The translations under genes were made by a program, and so were the position numbers. Below, in pieces: positions 2,296 to 11,182 of a DNA stretch of 42,656 nucleotides (its first letter is position 1; the number at the start of each line of letters is the position of its first letter). The stretch is taken from NCBI GenBank assembly GCA_013204455.1, contig JABMNW010000183.1:1-42656 (forward strand), written 5' to 3'. This DNA is from Acidimicrobiaceae bacterium (GTDB taxonomy: Bacteria > Actinomycetota > Acidimicrobiia > Acidimicrobiales > Ilumatobacteraceae). Below the pieces are notes generated by a model, which saw only the letters and a list, made by a program, of their open reading frames with translations, was not told the origin of the DNA and did not search any database.

Positions 2296-2973
2296 TCAGG
2301 CGAGATGACGTAGGTCATTCAATGAAAGACGTCCTGTATAGATCGCCATACCAACTGCGGCATTTATGTCCATTGACTTGAGTGCTTTGATGTCATCCAA
2401 CGTCGTGATCCCTCCGGCAGCGGTGATCTCGTGAGTCGTTGTGGCCCGAAGTTGCGCAAACCATTCCAGATCGGTGCCCTGCATCATGCCTTCCTTGTCG
2501 ACATAGGTGCACAAGAATCCACTACACGATGAGGCGAGGGTGGCCATCGCCTCTACTGCTGTAATTGTGGTGGATTCTTTCCATCCTTTGACGACAACCT
2601 TTCCGTTCTTCGAATCAAGGGCGATCACAAGTTTTTCTTTGCTCACGGCATCCACTATGCGAGATAACTCCGGGGTAAACGCCGCCGTGCCGATGATCAC
2701 CCGATGTGCACCGAGACCAACCAGTTCGGCTGCTCGCTCGGCACTTCGCACTCCTCCACCAACACGACAGCGAGCACGCTCACAGAGTTGTGCGACGATC
2801 GCGGAGTTCTCGCCGGTTCCCATCGCCGCATCCAGATCGATGACCTGAATTTCAGGGAAGCCAACAAAAAGTTCCAGCATCTCAAGCGGTGGCGCACCTT
2901 CGAGTGCCTTATCACGGCCCTGCACGAGTTGCACAACCTTGCCACCCATGAGATCAATGCAGGGAAAAATCAC
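2296..2973 (-). CDS. hisA: Phosphoribosylformimino-5-aminoimidazole carboxamide ribotide isomerase
   Basis: [22 protein letters not shown]-barrel HisA; overlaps hisF by 4 nt. Confidence 0.93.
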
Positions 2974-3719
2974 CTGCGCACCGCGATGCGCTCATCGGCC
3001 AAAAACTTCTTAATCCCCGCAATGGTCAGTGATCCGAAATGGAATACCGAGGCGGCGAGAGCCGCATCGGCAACCCGTAAGATATTGCAAAAATCCTCCG
3101 GTGATCCAGCTCCACCGGAGGCAATCACGGGCACCCGGGTTGCGTCGTGCACCGCTGTGGTGAGTGCCAGATCAAAACCGCCCTGCACGCCGTCAGTGTT
3201 CATTGAGGTAAGCAGAATCTCGCCCGCACCAAGTGCTTCGCCGCGCTGTGCCCAACGCAAAGCATCCATACCTTCATCGTGGCGACCGCCGTTCGTAAAT
3301 ACATTCCAGCCCAACACCGACCGTCGGGCATCAATTGCGAGCACGACGGCTTGGCTACCAAATTCCTCGCTGAGTTCGCGCAATAGTTCTGGTCGTCGCA
3401 CCGCAGCGGTATTCACACTCACTTTGTCAGCACCGGCATGCAAGATCTTGCGTGCGTCTTCCACCGAACGAATTCCCCCACCAACAGTTAGGGGGATGAA
3501 TACCTGTTGGGCAGTGCGTGACACAATGTCGATCATCGTTTGGCGATTGTCGCTCGAGGCAGTGATGTCGAGAAATACCAGCTCATCTGCTCCTTCGTCG
3601 TTGTACCGCTTCGCCAGTTCCACCGGATCACCAGCATCGCGAAGATTGACGAAATTGACACCCTTAACGACTCGACCTTTATCGACGTCCAGGCACGGGA
3701 TGATGCGCTTAGTCAACAT
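2970..3719 (-). CDS. hisF: Imidazole glycerol phosphate synthase subunit HisF
   Basis: [49 protein letters not shown]. Confidence 0.97.
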
Positions 3720-4313
3720 CTATAGATCTACGAAATTCTGGAGCACACGCAAGCCCGCGCGACCCGACTTTTCGGGGTGAAACTGAACACCGAAAATGTT
3801 GTCGCGCTCGATGACCGCAGAAAACGACACGCCATGGGTGGTGGTCGCCGTGGTTGATGCAGTGACGGGACAGAAAAAACTGTTGGCAAAATAGAAATGC
3901 TGACCATCCTCAATATTGCGCAATAAACGAGAGGCTCCGTTGATTGAGATGCTGTTCCAGCCCATGTGCGGAACGCGTTGCGGAGCGCCGAACTGCGCGA
4001 CCGTCCCAGCAAGAACACCGAAACCGGGAACTCCTATGGCTTCGTCACTTTTCTCGAAAAGCACCTGCATTCCAAGACATACACCGAGAAACATTGCCCC
4101 CGAGGCAATGTGCCCGACGACGGCCTCACGAAGCCCGCGGGCATCAAGTTCGCGAGCGATCTGGGCAAAGTGCCCGACACCGGGAAGCATTATTTTCTGG
4201 GCCGAGTAAATGTCATCTGCGTTGCTGACGACTCTGAACGACGCACCCATCGATGACAATGCATTTTCAACCGAGCGCAAGTTGCCGGCGCCATAGTCGA
4301 CAACTGCGATCAC
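3720..4313 (-). CDS. hisH: Imidazole glycerol phosphate synthase glutamine amidotransferase subunit HisH
   Basis: [45 protein letters not shown] start at 4313 overlaps the hisB stop. Confidence 0.95.
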
Positions 4314-4897
4314 AGCAGACCCTTCGTGGATGGTAATTGCTTCTTCAACTGCGCGTCCGTTGAACACGCATATCGCAACGCACGAGCAAAGCACTTGAAG
4401 ATGCTCTCGATTTTGTGGTGATTGGAGCGGCCATACATCACCTTGAGATGCACGTTGGCCAAAGCATGGTTGACAAATCCACCGAAGAAGTCTTCAACAA
4501 GTTCTGTTTGCAAGTCGCCGATCAGTCGCACTTTGATCAGACTGCTGTATACCAATGCAGGGCGACCGCCAAGGTCGACTGCCGAGACGCACAGTGTTTC
4601 ATCCATCGGCAGCACGAAATAACCGGCTCGATTGATGCCCCTGCGCGTACCAAGTGCCTTGGCAAATAATTGCCCAAGCACGATGCCCACATCTTCAACG
4701 GTGTGGTGCTGATCTATATCTAGATCACCTTTGGCCTTGATCGTAAGATCGAAACCACCATGTTTGGCAAAAAGTTCCAGCATGTGATCCAAGAAACGAA
4801 TGCCTGTTGAGATGTCGTACTTTCCGTGACCCTCGATCACCAACTTTCCACTGATCTGGGTCTCTTTGGTGTTGCGCTCGATCGTTGCTCGTCTCAT
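4310..4897 (-). CDS. hisB: Imidazoleglycerol-phosphate dehydratase
   Basis: [38 protein letters not shown]. Confidence 0.96.
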
Positions 4898-5952
4898 AGT
4901 ACTTTCTCCAATTCATTGAGGAACTGCTTCATTTGTGCCCGCGTTCCGATTGTCACCCGCACACAGCCGGAAATTTCGTAACTACGATCGCGAATCAGGA
5001 TGCCGGTCTGTTTGAGTTGATCACGAATCGTGCTAGCCCGACTGCCAACATTGAAGAGAATGAAGTTTCCAGCACTCGCGTACCAGCGAAGCCCCAGAGC
5101 GCCGAGCCCTTCTTCGAGGAACGATCGAGCCGCCAGTACTTCGTTCACATAGTTGCGCACATAGGCAACATCGTTTACTGCGGCTACCGCGGCGACAACC
5201 GCCACGACATTCACGCTGTAGGGGGATTGCGCCTTGCGCAACCAGGCGATGTTCTGCTCTTGGGAGCACAAACACCCGCATCGAATACCCGCCATCCCGA
5301 ATGCTTTGGAAAATGTGCGGCTGACAAATAGTTGTGGATACTCGGCAAGCCAACCCATTGCCGTGATGCCTGAGAACTCGACATATGCCTCATCCACGAG
5401 CACTGCCGCATTTGGTGCGGCGGCGATCACTAGGCGGAGTTGCGATTCGCTCACCGGCGTACCCGTCGGATTATTCGGGTTTGAAATACACACGGCTCGA
5501 GTCTTTGGACCGATGGCGCCAAGAACGGCCTCGAGCGGAAATGCCAAGTCGTCAAGCACCTTGTACTCGACCTGGCGTACGACGGCTCCGGCAAGTTCGG
5601 CATAAAACCGATACATCGCATATGACGGGCTAAGTACGAGCACTTCCGACCCTGCTTCAACGAATGTGTTGAAGAGCAACTGGATCGCTTCATCGGTGCC
5701 GTTGGTAAATGTCATCTGATTTTCATTGATTCCCAAAAACGACGACACGGCACTGCGTGCTTGCGAGTATTCGGGATACATACTCAGGGACTCACCAGTG
5801 AGGGCATTCGTGATTGCCGCAATGACAGCCGGCGAACACCCCACGGTGTTTTCATTGAAGTCCAGTCGCAACTTTCCACCGCGACCGTTTTGTGGTGGCG
5901 AATACGCTTTCATCTGGATTACCGCAGTCCGCGGGAGTAATTCATTTGTCAT
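4894..5952 (-). CDS. hisC: Histidinol-phosphate aminotransferase
   Basis: [40 protein letters not shown]; likely start MTNELLPRT at 5952, shorter than the supplied ORF. Confidence 0.93.
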
Positions 5953-7171
5953 AACGCACCTCCACCGACCTGGCATGTGCTTCGAGACCTTCAGCCCGGG
6001 CAATTGTGGTGATCGTCGGCACAAGTTCACGCAATCCATCTGCCGAAAGTTCTTGCACTGAGATGACTTTGACAAAATCTGCTGCCGATAATCCGCCACG
6101 CAACCGTGCCTGACCCGAGGTTGGTAAAACATGGTTGGGACCACTTGCATAATCCCCCGCCGCCTCCGGACTGAAGGGCCCGAGAAACACCGATCCGGCA
6201 TTTGTGATACCAGAGAGCCACGATGCATCGTACAAAACCAAGTGTTCAGGGGCGAGCGAATCGGAAAATTCAAGCGCCTGTTCGATCGTCTCACAGAGCA
6301 CGATTGCGCCGTTGCTGTCTATCGAGGCACGGGCGGTTGATGCCGTTGACAGATCAGCAAGTTGCGTCTCGATCTCGTTTTGCACGGCACGTGCCAATGA
6401 CGCAGACGTAGTCAGCAAGATTGCTGACGCATCCACATCGTGTTCTGATTGAGCAAGCATGTCTGCGGCAATCCATGCCGGATTTCCATCTTTGGCGATG
6501 ATCAACACCTCCGATGGTCCGGCGATGAAGTCGATCGCGCAATCGCCGGAGATTAGTTTCTTTGCCGCGGCGACATAGGCGTTACCGGGACCGACAATAC
6601 GCTCCACCCGGGGAACCGACTCGGTTCCGAAAGCGAACGCGGCAATCGCCTGGGCGCCCCCGATGCAGAAGAACTTGCTCACGCCCAACTTTGCCGCAGT
6701 TCCGAGAATCTCGGTGCTTGGCCGCGGGCAGGCAACACATGTCATTGGCACCCCGGCAACTTGTGCCGGGATGATCGTCATCAACAGTGTGGATGGAAGC
6801 GGGTATCGACCTGCCGGAACATATGCACCCATCGATGCAATAGGGCGAACAACCTGACCGAGGCGGCGACCATCGCTGAACTCGATCATTTTCTCTTGCG
6901 GAAGTTGCATCTGCGCAAATTCGCGAATGTTGCGTGCCGCAGTTTCGATCGCTTTCTCGAACTCAGGTTCAAGCACACCTTTGGGCTGAATTAGCACAGA
7001 GTCACCGTCAAAGCCATCAAACTTTCGTGCATAGTCGAGCAGTGCCGCATCACCGCGGTCGCGCACATCGGCAATGATTGGCGCGACCACTGCTTCGGCA
7101 TCGCTTAGCAGCCGCGCCTTGCGAGCACGCAGCACACCCGCTTGGGAAATTGGCAAGATCCGAATCATCAC
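5942..7171 (-). CDS. hisD: Histidinol dehydrogenase
   Basis: [73 protein letters not shown]. Confidence 0.96.
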
Positions 7172-8073
7172 ATGATGATCTTGTTAAGTGGATATTCAAC
7201 GATGCCGCTCGCCCCTGCCGCCTTCAGACGGGGCACGATTGTTCGAACTGTTGCTTCATCGAGAATCGTGTTCAGCGCCAGCCAGTTTTCATCAGTGAGA
7301 TTCGAGATTGTGGGTTTCTTGAGCGCCGGCAACACTGCAACAACTGCCTGCAGATTCTGTTTTTCGACGTTCATCATCAGACCTACTTTGCCCATCGCGT
7401 TAATCGCCCCCTCCAGCAGCATCTTGATATCCAGCAATTGGTTGCGCTTGGCTTCGTCTTTCCACGAATCCACATTGGCGATGAAAACTGTGTTCGATTC
7501 AATCACCGTTTCGATGATGCGCAGGTTGTTGGCACGAAGCGATGAGCCCGTCTCTGTAACCTCAACAATCGCATCGGCCAATATCGGGGGTTTCACCTCG
7601 GTGGCTCCCCAACTGAACTCGACCTTGGCCCGCACCCCATTTAGGGCGAGATAGCGGTTCGTTGTTTGAACCAGTTCGGTAGCGATGATTTTTCCTTCGA
7701 GATCACGGACCGACTGCACCGGTGAAGATTCAGGAACTGCCAGCACCCAGCGCACGCGACCAAAACTCTGTTTGGAATACACCAGATCGGCTATCGGCTG
7801 GACGATGGCGCCACTCTCGGCGATCCAGTCCTGGCCGGTGAGCCCGGCATCCAATACGCCGTCTTCGACATACCGCGCCATTTCTTGTGCTCGAATCAGC
7901 ATGCATTCGATATTCGGGTCATCGATTGCAGGGAAATACGACCGATCGTTCACCGTGATCTGGAACCCCGCACGGCGAAATAAATCAACGGTGGCATTCT
8001 CTAGACTCCCCTTTGGGATTCCGAGTTTCAAGATTCCTGGTTTTTGTGTCATTGTGCTCTCCATATTCATCAT
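7168..8073 (-). CDS. hisG: ATP phosphoribosyltransferase, long form with C-terminal regulatory-like domain
   Basis: [53 protein letters not shown]; overlaps hisI by 4 nt. Confidence 0.94.
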
Positions 8074-8474
8074 TTGGCGTATACATCATCTGGTTGAAAT
8101 GTTTGTGTTTCGGTAACCACCCATTCATCGCCGCGTAGTTCGCGCACGAAGCAACTTTCGTAACCCTCGTGGCACACACCAGGCCCGAGAACCTCGACCG
8201 AAATGAGCAGAGAATCGCGATCACAATCGGTGGTGATCCCCCGCACGGCCAGACGATGACCAGACGACTCGCCCTTTAGCCACAAGGTGTTGCGGGATCG
8301 GCTATAGAACACGACGTAACCAGTTTCGATGGTCGCAACGATGGCTGCATGATTCATAAAGCCGACCATCAGCACACGCTTGGTGTTTGCATCTTGTACG
8401 ACGGCGGCAACGAGGCCATCAAGTTTTGTAAAGTCGAGTGCTGAGACCGACTTCGGTGTGATTATATTTGTCAT
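8070..8474 (-). CDS. hisI: Phosphoribosyl-AMP cyclohydrolase, no fused HisE domain
   Basis: [58 protein letters not shown]. Confidence 0.93.
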
Positions 8475-8505
8475 AAACTGACTCCTAATTTGATTCTGGG
8501 AAAAG

Positions 8506-8532
8506 AAAAAACCCGCCGGTGAATCCGACGGG
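8506..8532 (-). terminator. Rho-independent terminator hairpin of the his leader (attenuator)
   Basis: Minus strand CCCGTCGG-ATTCA-CCGGCGGG-TTTTTT: 8-bp stem with one G-T wobble followed by six T, about 30 nt before the hisI start. Confidence 0.88.
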
Positions 8533-8573
8533 CTCTGAAACGGAATGAAAACTTGTGCGTTACACGAGAGCCC
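8530..8573 (-). promoter_or_regulatory. Candidate his antiterminator hairpin
   Basis: Minus strand GGGCTCT (8573-8567) is perfectly complementary to AGAGCCC (8536-8530); the latter includes the first bases of the terminator 5' arm. Confidence 0.75.
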
Positions 8574-8616
8574 TGTGTGTCATGTGATGATGGGCCGCGT
8601 GATGTATTACGAACAT
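8560..8616 (-). CDS. Histidine-rich leader peptide MFVIHHAAHHHMTHRALV
   Basis: ATG TTC GTA ATA CAT CAC GCG GCC CAT CAT CAC ATG ACA CAC AGG GCT CTC GTG TAA: 6 His in 18 aa, directly upstream of antiterminator/terminator and hisI. A GTG at 8625 is an alternative in-frame start. Confidence 0.88.
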   Translation of the reverse strand: MFVIHHAAHHHMTHRALV

Positions 8617-8730
8617 GCCCGTCACGATAGTGGGCTTGATGGCGATGTACAACTCGGTTATCGCACGCCGATCGAATTCGAGTTAACCTATGAAAAATCA
8701 TCCATCCCAGCCTGATATTCACATCACAGC

Positions 8731-8785
8731 GGGTAACCAAACCGTAGGGCAGGTCAAGTGGGTAACCAAACTATGGGACAGGTCA
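8731..8785 (+). repeat. Tandem direct repeat, two 26-nt copies with 29-nt period
   Basis: gggtaaccaaaccgtagggcaggtca (8731-8756) and gggtaaccaaactatgggacaggtca (8760-8785), 22/26 identical. Confidence 0.85.
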
Positions 8786-9057
8786 GTAAGTTCGATCGCA
8801 TGAACCGTTCCGACGCCCTTGGCTGGCAGACCCGAGGGGTCTCCCCGTGTCCGAGCGACGACCATCCGAATTTACCATCACAGTCGAAAGACAGAGTAAG
8901 GGTAAAGAACATCCACAATATTGCGGAACGCCCAATGTCCCCTATCCTCGGAGGAGTAGCCCCTGAATCCCTGGGCCGGGAAAAGTTATAGATACAGTCA
9001 GGAAAAGTCATCCCCTACTAAAAGAAAACGCGTTCCCTACCCGAGAACTATCAGTCT

Positions 9058-9085
9058 TAGGGGTTGGCGTATCGGTCAACCCCTA
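9058..9085 (+). other. Strong stem-loop upstream of the ion channel gene
   Basis: TAGGGGTTG ... CAACCCCTA, perfect 9-bp inverted repeat with 10-nt spacer. Confidence 0.75.
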
Positions 9086-9115
9086 CCCCGAGTTGAAATG
9101 AGTAAGAATCATTAG

Positions 9116-9811
9116 ATGCCTGAGCCCGCTGATTCTGATTACTTGATTAGGTGGAAAAAGTGGACTGACCTACCTCTACTTATTCTTGCAATTGGCAGTC
9201 TTCCGCTACTGCTCCTTGATTTTAAATCTGACCGCCTGACCGAGCTAGATACAAATTTTCTATTTGCGGTCAATGTTGCTGTGTTCGTTGCATTTGCTAT
9301 CGACTACGTCGTTGAACTCATGTTGAGTAAGCGACGTCTTCATTACATCAAGACAGAATGGGCAAGTTTTTTAATCGTAATTGCTCAGTTGCTCGCGCTC
9401 TTACCATCTCTCGGATTTCTGGGTGTGTTACGTGGAGTGCGTGCGCTCCGGGTTATTGGCACACTTACACGACTCGTTGGAATTGGAGTTGCAATTCGAG
9501 GTGACGGCAAGAAATTATTCAAAAAGCATGCAGCATCTCTGGCCTTCGGAATTTCTGGGTTCACTCTCATCTCATCTGCTGTTGCATTCACGCTGGCAGA
9601 AAATGTAGGCAAAGAAGGCCGAATAGGTTCATTCTTTGATGCACTGTGGTGGGCAGCGGCCACCATCACCACTGTCGGTTACGGCGATATCTACCCTATA
9701 ACTTCAGCCGGTCGAGTTATAGCGGTCTTCACAATGGTCGTAGGTATCAGTACCCTTGCAGTTGTCACTGCCAGAATTGCCCAGTTCTTAATGCGGAGCG
9801 ATAGCAACTAA
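9116..9811 (+). CDS. Voltage-gated-like potassium channel
   Basis: Multiple TM segments, arginine-rich RGVRALRVIGTLTRLV S4-like segment and TITTVGYGDIYP selectivity filter. Confidence 0.92.
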   Translation: MPEPADSDYLIRWKKWTDLPLLILAIGSLPLLLLDFKSDRLTELDTNFLFAVNVAVFVAFAIDYVVELMLSKRRLHYIKTEWASFLIVIAQLLALLPSLGFLGVLRGVRALRVIGTLTRLVGIGVAIRGDGKKLFKKHAASLAFGISGFTLISSAVAFTLAENVGKEGRIGSFFDALWWAAATITTVGYGDIYPITSAGRVIAVFTMVVGISTLAVVTARIAQFLMRSDSN

Positions 9812-9895
9812 GTCGCCAATCCCACCTGACAGCACACGTTTATAACTTGCCTCTATTGCGCACTCAATTGTCTTCTTCTCTCACTCATGTCTGTG

Positions 9896-10690
9896 TTACG
9901 GCTTCATGCCATTAACTAATTCAGCCAGCTCCTGAATTCGCCCAACAGCGTCCACTTCCATCTCATCAGAGGCATAAGCAGCATCAGAGAAATCGTCGAA
10001 AATGTAATCACAGACTGACATGACGTCTTCCCACTTTTGCGTGTCCTGACCTTCGGGATTTTCTTCAACCCACTTGGCATGTGATACAAAAAGCGCAGCA
10101 ACACCCACTGCTTTCTTGCACAAGGACTTCAACTGAGTGATGGTCTCAGGTTCATTACATGTATTTGAGAGGTTGATTGCCTTTTCGATGGCCTTGCCTA
10201 AAGCTGCATCGGTCATCTTCTGAGGAATGAGTTCTTCAACTTCTCGTCCGACCTTGGGCATGTAGATAGACCCAAAAATACCGGTGTTGGCTGTGTCTTC
10301 CGCTGAGACTACCTTGGCCATGCCCCAAAGGAGTTCGCCTCTACTAATAGCTTCATTAACCCAATTGAACCATTGCGTATTCGCAGGCTTTCCTATGTAA
10401 CCAACGTGTACATTTGCCGCATAAACAGCCACAGCCCTCTTGTCGTACTGATTGTTCGGTTCAGGGACTAGATAAATTTCGAACTGCTTGCCCTCTGCAG
10501 CCTTTGCAACTGCAGAAATGTTGGCAACTCTGAAGGACTCACCGACAATGTCGATTTCCACCGGCTGCCCAACTTGGGCTTTCTTCAAAGTGAGCCCAAG
10601 CTTATCTGTCGCAATCAAATCAGGCAGCGTCAAGTCAGCTGGGTCAATAACGATTTCCTTTGCACCAAAGACCTTTTTCAAAAACCCCAT
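9896..10690 (-). CDS. HIRAN-domain-like protein
   Basis: ESFRVANISAVAKAAEGKQFEIYLVPEPNNQYDKRAVAVYAANVHVGYIGKPAN resembles HIRAN (LVPEPNNxYDxxAVAV...VGY). Confidence 0.65.
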   Translation of the reverse strand: MGFLKKVFGAKEIVIDPADLTLPDLIATDKLGLTLKKAQVGQPVEIDIVGESFRVANISAVAKAAEGKQFEIYLVPEPNNQYDKRAVAVYAANVHVGYIGKPANTQWFNWVNEAISRGELLWGMAKVVSAEDTANTGIFGSIYMPKVGREVEELIPQKMTDAALGKAIEKAINLSNTCNEPETITQLKSLCKKAVGVAALFVSHAKWVEENPEGQDTQKWEDVMSVCDYIFDDFSDAAYASDEMEVDAVGRIQELAELVNGMKP

Positions 10691-10846
10691 AACTCTCCTT
10701 CATCACCCATTAAGACAGAATAGTTAGACATTCTGACAATCTAATCAATATCGAGTTGCAGTCGCAAAAATATCGACAAAAGCTTTAATAGTCGTTTCGG
10801 ATGGTCACAGTACCATCAGCAGAGTTTTGTTTCATCTCAAAGGATT

Positions 10847-11182
10847 TCAGATTGAAATCCAACATCTCCGAAATTCCTGTACCGTTAACTCTCCTGATTG
10901 TGCTTGTGTATATCGGGCCACCATTGCCCCACTAGATCAGCCGGTGATAGCGCTGACAGAAGTTTCAGAGACACTACTTCGTAGCGCATGGACAGTCCAT
11001 CCGCGCCTCCATGCGTGCGCTGATGGTGCGCCGAGGTGTTGCGGACACAACCTGATTGGATTAGTCGACATATAAAACAAGGACCCTTGTGTACTCCTGC
11101 CGATATGTTTGCGAAGTGCATGACGCGCCGATGGAGACAGAGGCGCTAATGAGTATCGGTGTAAACAGAAGCGCCAACGCAC
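10847..11182 (-). pseudogene. Relic tyrosine recombinase/integrase, C-terminal catalytic region
   Basis: Minus-strand frame reads LGAPSAHAWRRGWTVHALRSSVSETSVSAITG*SSGAMVARYTQAQSGELTVQEFRR; HxxR and RY(T) boxes present; in-frame TGA at 10937-10939 where GW is expected. Confidence 0.75.

Follow-up and report, generated by a model that had tools for sequence, protein, structure and literature searches.

Introduction

Histidine attenuators have been described for Proteobacteria and for three lineages of Firmicutes, and his T-boxes are known from Actinobacteria and Firmicutes (PMC9413887). Within the Firmicutes, His-leader attenuators have been predicted in the Bacillus cereus group, Peptostreptococcaceae and Erysipelotrichales (PMC9413887), leaders of hisS and hisZ are known in bacilli (PMC2965389), and horizontal transfer of an operon together with its attenuator has been proposed for one case, that of Lutispora. 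Actinobacteria possess leader-peptide attenuators of trp, leuS and ilvB, but according to a survey of this group their histidine operons have no conserved RNA regulatory structure upstream of them (PMC1262725). In the trpL system (peTrpL) of Sinorhizobium meliloti, the 5' end of the attenuator RNA is the ATG of the leader peptide (PMC7298713).

We analysed a contig of 42,656 nucleotides from an Acidimicrobiaceae bacterium (GCA_013204455.1, contig JABMNW010000183.1), referred to as the window, in which the first-pass annotation had proposed a histidine attenuator upstream of hisI. The 18-codon ORF with six His codons, the terminator, its U-run and the complementarity between GGGCTCT and AGAGCCC are present exactly as it described them, to the base, and comparative genomics strongly supports the predicted ribosome-mediated transcription attenuator that depends on the His codons. 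Computational analysis establishes the anatomy, conservation and covariation of this element and the origin of its operon. The element is very probably a classical ribosome-mediated (leader-peptide) transcription attenuator of the his operon which was acquired together with the operon from Acidobacteriota. It is well supported and ordinary in its mechanism; its lineage, its transfer history and probably its mode of initiation are new.

Comparison with described systems

The likeness to the classic enterobacterial his logic, drawn in the first-pass annotation, holds for the predicted way of working. Like the enterobacterial leader (RF00514, His_leader), the element has a short peptide with His codons in tandem, an antiterminator and a terminator that exclude each other, and a complete his operon to control. 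The likeness does not extend to the family itself, as RF00514 gave no match up to E=1 between positions 6000 and 11000 of the window, nor at the gathering score in four related loci. Moreover, the first gene is hisI instead of hisG, the arms are short and simple, and the leader appears to be leaderless, its start codon lying at the predicted 5' end without a Shine-Dalgarno sequence. The hosts differ as well, being Acidobacteriota and Acidimicrobiia here and gamma-proteobacteria for RF00514.

The predicted Firmicutes leaders resemble the element in being lineage-specific His-rich peptides with a terminator and an antiterminator, found by comparative genomics; however, they carry three to five His codons, belong to another phylum and are likened here by description and not by sequence. 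The S. meliloti trpL, whose leaderless start is experimentally known, resembles the start predicted here from the -10 spacing, but it encodes Trp instead of His and its host is an alpha-proteobacterium. The trp, leuS and ilvB attenuators belong to the same mechanism class and the same phylum, whereas the native actinobacterial his operons of the earlier survey (PMC1262725) differ in that the element described here arrived with a foreign operon. A search of open-access literature yielded nothing on a his attenuator in Acidobacteriota or Acidimicrobiia, and priority is not certain.

Organization of the histidine operon

All eight genes of the operon are encoded on the minus strand in the order hisIGDCBHFA, a complete set for the synthesis of histidine, in which the leader is rich. 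The first gene, hisI (8070–8474, ATG at 8474), encodes phosphoribosyl-AMP cyclohydrolase (PF01502, NF000768) and exceeds the cut-off of the monofunctional model only; no hisE gene was seen within the operon (2296–8474) or beside it. It is followed by hisG (7168–8073), a long form with the C-terminal regulatory domain (TIGR00070 and TIGR03455), by hisD (5942–7171, TIGR00069), which falls inside an Acidobacteriota clade, and by hisC (4894–5991), located inside the ORF 4894–6294 with an approximate start and scoring over the TIGR01141 cut-off. Next are hisB (4310–4897, over the NF002111 cut-off), hisH (3720–4394, TIGR01855), whose start is probably downstream of the ORF start, and hisF (2970–3719, TIGR00735). 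The last gene (2296–2973) is a member of the HisA/HisF family and was assigned as hisA from its position after hisF and its best match, TIGR00007, at 187 bits, which is below the cut-off of 229. Directly downstream of hisA, inspection by eye shows an AbiEii-like nucleotidyltransferase ORF (601–1566) and a possible AbiEi-like partner (1700–2284), both on the minus strand, which may represent a toxin-antitoxin pair.

Anatomy of the predicted attenuator

The leader ORF (8560–8616, minus strand) encodes the 18-codon peptide MFVIHHAAHHHMTHRALV, which ends at a stop codon 85 nt from the hisI start codon; its His residues occupy codons 5, 6, 9, 10, 11 and 14, and homologous His-rich leaders are present in the genus of the window (g1) and in its sister genus (g5). 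When the 450 nt upstream of hisI were dinucleotide-shuffled 3000 times, just 10 of the shuffles contained an ORF with at least five His within 14 codons.

Four pairing arms can be recognized on the minus strand. Arm 1 (GGCCC, 8592–8596) pairs with arm 2 in a 1:2 hairpin, for which an equivalent GCCC:GGGC exists in the family consensus. Arm 2 (GGGCTCT, 8567–8573) lies in the last leader codons, its core GGGCTC being invariant in nine relatives, and is complementary to arm 3 (AGAGCCCGTCGG, 8525–8536). The complementary AGAGCCC covers 8536–8530, the very start of the terminator stem, so that arm 3 is common to the antiterminator (with arm 2) and the terminator (with arm 4, CCGGCGGGTTTT, 8508–8519, the terminator 3' arm). 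The terminator stem (8536–8508) comprises 12 pairs, is followed by a T6 tract (8506–8511) that is invariant in 9 of 9 relatives, and is the sole terminator returned by a terminator scan of 8460–8900. It is located 32 nt 5' of hisI, between the leader and the first gene.

A candidate -10 hexamer, TATCGT (8624–8629, minus strand), ends 7 nt 5' of the leader start codon. The candidate -35 hexamer, TTGTAC (8647–8652, minus strand), was read from the sequence at the edge of a truncated insertion sequence; it is a weak match and was not returned by a strict promoter scan. The resulting layout is TTGTAC-17-TATCGT-7-ATG, with 17 nt between the candidate hexamers. A transcription start downstream of 8560 had been named in the first-pass annotation as speaking against attenuation, and the predicted promoter sits upstream of the leader.

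The position of the terminator bears on two other modes of control. The hairpin could act on hisI translation, or on reinitiation after the leader ORF, without any termination of transcription, since 85 nt separate the leader stop from the hisI start and such leaders give translational control in other systems. This seems very improbable to us: an invariant T6 directly follows the hairpin, the hisI Shine-Dalgarno sequence (AGGAG, 8482–8486, minus strand, read from the sequence) lies outside it, and reinitiation coupling would call for a much shorter distance. Control by a tRNA-binding T-box or by a HisR-type repressor, with the His-rich ORF being secondary, has precedents in the his T-boxes of Corynebacterium and Lactococcus and in the HisR of some Actinobacteria (PMC9413887). 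However, a T-box would not fit into the compact leader, and the T-box model (RF00230) gave no match up to E=1 in 6000–11000 of the window, nor at the gathering threshold in four related loci. We give control of either kind hardly any weight compared with transcription attenuation. An Rfam mir-92 match at 8962–9052 was rejected as a sub-threshold chance match.

RNA pairing and covariation

RNA folding, which the first-pass annotation had suggested as a check, recovers the 1:2 pairing within the minimum-energy fold, GGCCC with GGGCT in the window and GCCC with GGGC in g1. In an alignment of 21 sequences from both phyla, 81% of the antiterminator cells (arm 2:arm 3) are paired, against 25–42% when the partner is slid, and double changes of UA to GC and of CG to UA or GC are seen; in the terminator 92% of the cells are paired. 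The shuffles used for covariation take no account of relatedness among the sequences. Taken singly, the antiterminator duplexes are better than shuffles at the 5% level in no more than 40 of 61 loci, and the duplex in the window between the leader 3' end and the terminator 5' arm beats 96.5% of shuffled leader ends. At equilibrium the terminator (-19 kcal/mol) is more stable than the antiterminator (-13 kcal/mol), and the switch must therefore act co-transcriptionally, as other attenuators do.

Conservation of the leader within the family and phylum

A hisI search covering 61 relatives found his operons of the same type in g1 and g5, with hisI proteins about 60% identical to that of the window. 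Every checked g1 or g5 genome with the operon retains the leader, with 6–10 His codons, and the hairpins; examples of the leaders preceding hisI are MNNFAIVAHHTHHHVHHVTRRAHL, MNTFAIAAHHNHHVHHVTRRAHL and MLITHVAHHHVHHVTRRAHL, after which the same terminator follows. Length changes among the g1 leaders are in whole codons, up to a nine-base repeat of CATCACGTG, and CAT and CAC swap freely. The conservation that was to be expected of a genuine attenuator in relatives is thus found for leader, His codons, antiterminator and terminator, together with covariation, and we take this conservation as the decisive argument that the element is real.

A covariance model built from nine leaders gave strong matches (E<1e-11) in 15 of 224 family genomes, all of them g1 or g5. 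A broader model, run on 348 genomes across the phylum, was convincing only in the window genome and in one g5 genome (G032), and ten of the next matches, in other Actinomycetota, were inspected and contained no His-rich leader. These ten and a weak match in G019 look like ordinary terminators at or after gene ends without a His-rich ORF. Further weak family-level matches lie in G002, G194 and G030 and, as second matches, in G020, G023, G024 and G008, besides shorter phylum-level ones. The native his genes of the order are without such a leader: among 21 hisI genes a single one is preceded by a His-rich ORF, which is due to chance, and among 29 hisD genes none is.

Origin of the operon

The first-pass annotation regarded the operon as actinobacterial in type, which the phylogenies contradict: both the HisD and the HisG trees place it with Acidobacteriota. 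The nearest hisI genes outside the lineage are also acidobacterial. In the HisD tree, the window and g1/g5 sequences lie among Acidobacteriota, separated from the native HisD of the order by a split with a support of 100, and are nested beside Bryobacterales, which favours a transfer from Acidobacteriota to this lineage.

The HisD of the window is 73% identical to Acidobacteriota and 62% to its genus mates, hinting at separate acquisitions by the window and by g1/g5. This was not supported, because the window and g1/g5 form one clade in the HisG tree (support 99) and a single HisD clade is compatible with the data (AU p=0.87); one acquisition is therefore the simplest reading. Since the trees place the operon in Acidobacteriota, where His-rich leaders also precede hisI, operon and attenuator probably crossed phyla together, and once, as judged from these comparisons. 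An acidobacterial contig contaminating the bin was considered as well. A gene only 3 kb away is 78–89% identical to genus mates, which carry the same operon type, and the contig is therefore taken to be genuine.

Histidinol dehydrogenase is present in 9 of the 29 g1 genomes; if these are restricted to a completeness of at least 90% and a contamination of at most 5%, it is present in 1 of 4. Most of g1 may therefore be His auxotrophs. The lack of HisD in 20 of 29 genomes suggests a patchy His prototrophy in the genus. The hisD match of G004 consists of three separate pieces and may represent a broken gene.

His-rich leaders in Acidobacteriota

Acidobacteriota were sampled through 80 loci picked by similarity to hisI of this lineage, and the distribution given here depends on that choice. 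Outside the family, 51 of 78 hisI loci are preceded by an ORF with at least four clustered His and 43 of 78 by one with at least five, compared to 55 positives among 3200 random stretches of the same loci at the 5-His setting. The 27 of 78 loci without a His-rich leader belong to Deltaproteobacteria, Verrucomicrobia and others, with only two from Acidobacteriota (L072 and L076). Counted by record labels and tree, about 48 of 50 acidobacterial hisI loci carry a His-rich leader, for example MTVALVARHHHHHHANLRRAVS and MSAARHHRHHHHHRHAAPRRAHS. Many of these leaders finish with CGACGGGC (Arg-Arg-Ala), which forms arm 2, and hisI is the first gene in the window and in the examined g1/g5 and Acidobacteriota loci. 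The his leader switch therefore appears to be widespread in Acidobacteriota, and no earlier description was found in the literature searched.

A metagenome bin labelled Bordetella parapertussis (L071) has the same His leader, and its his genes group with Bryobacterales, so that the label is probably wrong. In an Armatimonadota bin (L074), the region upstream of hisI (4001) holds a His-rich leader accompanied by a distinct hairpin (AGCCGAGCCTGC...GCAGGCTCGGCT), and the arrangement may therefore extend beyond Acidobacteriota.

Probable leaderless start of the leader peptide

Of 60 distinct leaders, 53 have a TAnnnT motif that ends 6–10 nt upstream of the start codon, in 28 of them at exactly 8 nt, whereas shuffles give a mean of 7.0 and a maximum of 17 such placements. 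A Shine-Dalgarno-like motif precedes the start in only 4 of the 60. The usual spacing from the -10 element to +1 puts the leader start codon within a few nucleotides of the 5' end. Because of this spacing and the scarcity of Shine-Dalgarno motifs, the message that encodes the leader peptide is probably leaderless. This suggests that leaderless initiation is the normal reading mode of these leader peptides.

Proposed mechanism

In the mechanism that we infer, comprising the transcription start, ribosome stalling and the direction of the response, transcription would begin at the leader ATG or a few nucleotides upstream of it, and the first ribosome would load on a leaderless message. With ample His-tRNA, the ribosome would reach the UAA and cover arm 2, arm 3 would pair with arm 4, and the polymerase would stop before hisI. 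With scarce His-tRNA, it would stall with His codons 9–11 in the A site, covering arm 1 and leaving arm 2 free to pair with arm 3 before arm 4 is made; no terminator would then form and hisIGDCBHFA would be transcribed. If no ribosome were present, arm 1 would pair with arm 2 and the terminator would form by default.

The stall geometry, with arm 1 covered and arm 2 free, was worked out by hand, taking the ribosome to cover about 12 nt downstream of its A site (PMC4833913), and should be read as an estimate. Within the ORF, His codons 9–11 occupy nt 25–33, arm 2 nt 44–50 and the UAA nt 55–57. A stall at His codon 14 would cover arm 2, being too close to leave it free.

Such an attenuator would keep working after transfer, because it needs only the RNA polymerase and ribosomes of the host and no dedicated regulator. 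At this locus, the passage of a regulator-free switch from one phylum to another along with its operon can be traced. With moderate confidence, we favour the broader proposal of a phylum-wide leaderless histidine attenuator family in Acidobacteriota that moves between phyla with the operon, still works, and may provide some members of a mostly His-auxotrophic genus with a His pathway that regulates itself.

Insertion sequence and state of the window copy

The plus strand upstream of the leader (8642–8777) carries the truncated 3' end of an IS3-like element, consisting of a transposase C-terminus (...QLGYRTPIEFELTYEKSSIPA, stop at 8713–8715) and the right end. In G024, a longer transposase ORF ends in a sequence with 86–88% identity to this remnant, which also matches Rhodococcus pNit. 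As its broken edge is only 26–33 nt upstream of the leader ATG and the plus strand there encodes transposase, the leader ORF could be imagined as a chance antisense reading of transposase DNA, with the terminator merely ending antisense or read-through transcription. We consider this next to impossible and reject it, because the G024 homology stops at 8642–8649, outside the leader ORF, and homologous leaders are conserved in genomes without an insertion sequence at this place.

The remnant edge lies on the candidate -35 and may therefore have altered the promoter strength. With 6 His codons and 67 bits, against about 130–143 bits for the others, the window copy is the most diverged in g1, and for both reasons it could be less active. 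A stronger version would make it a decaying relic whose original promoter was removed by the insertion-sequence event, only the copies of the relatives being functional. Its family score is the lowest in g1 and its His codons are the fewest; it has also lost the inner antiterminator hairpin that g1/g5 have, and a truncated insertion sequence sits at its -35, all of which agrees with such decay. On the other hand, the reading frame, the four arms, the T6 tract and a -10 at the family spacing are all intact, as are the his genes, and the divergence may be mere age since the window HisD branch is long and separate from g1/g5. We regard a relic as unlikely, though worth keeping in mind, and a working attenuator in the window as the better reading. 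Between 8642 and 8790 on the plus strand, the IS3-like element has beyond its right end another one resembling it (GGGTAACCAAACcgTAGGGCAGGTCA, GGGTAACCAAACtaTGGGACAGGTCA), as if two insertion-sequence ends were arranged in tandem.
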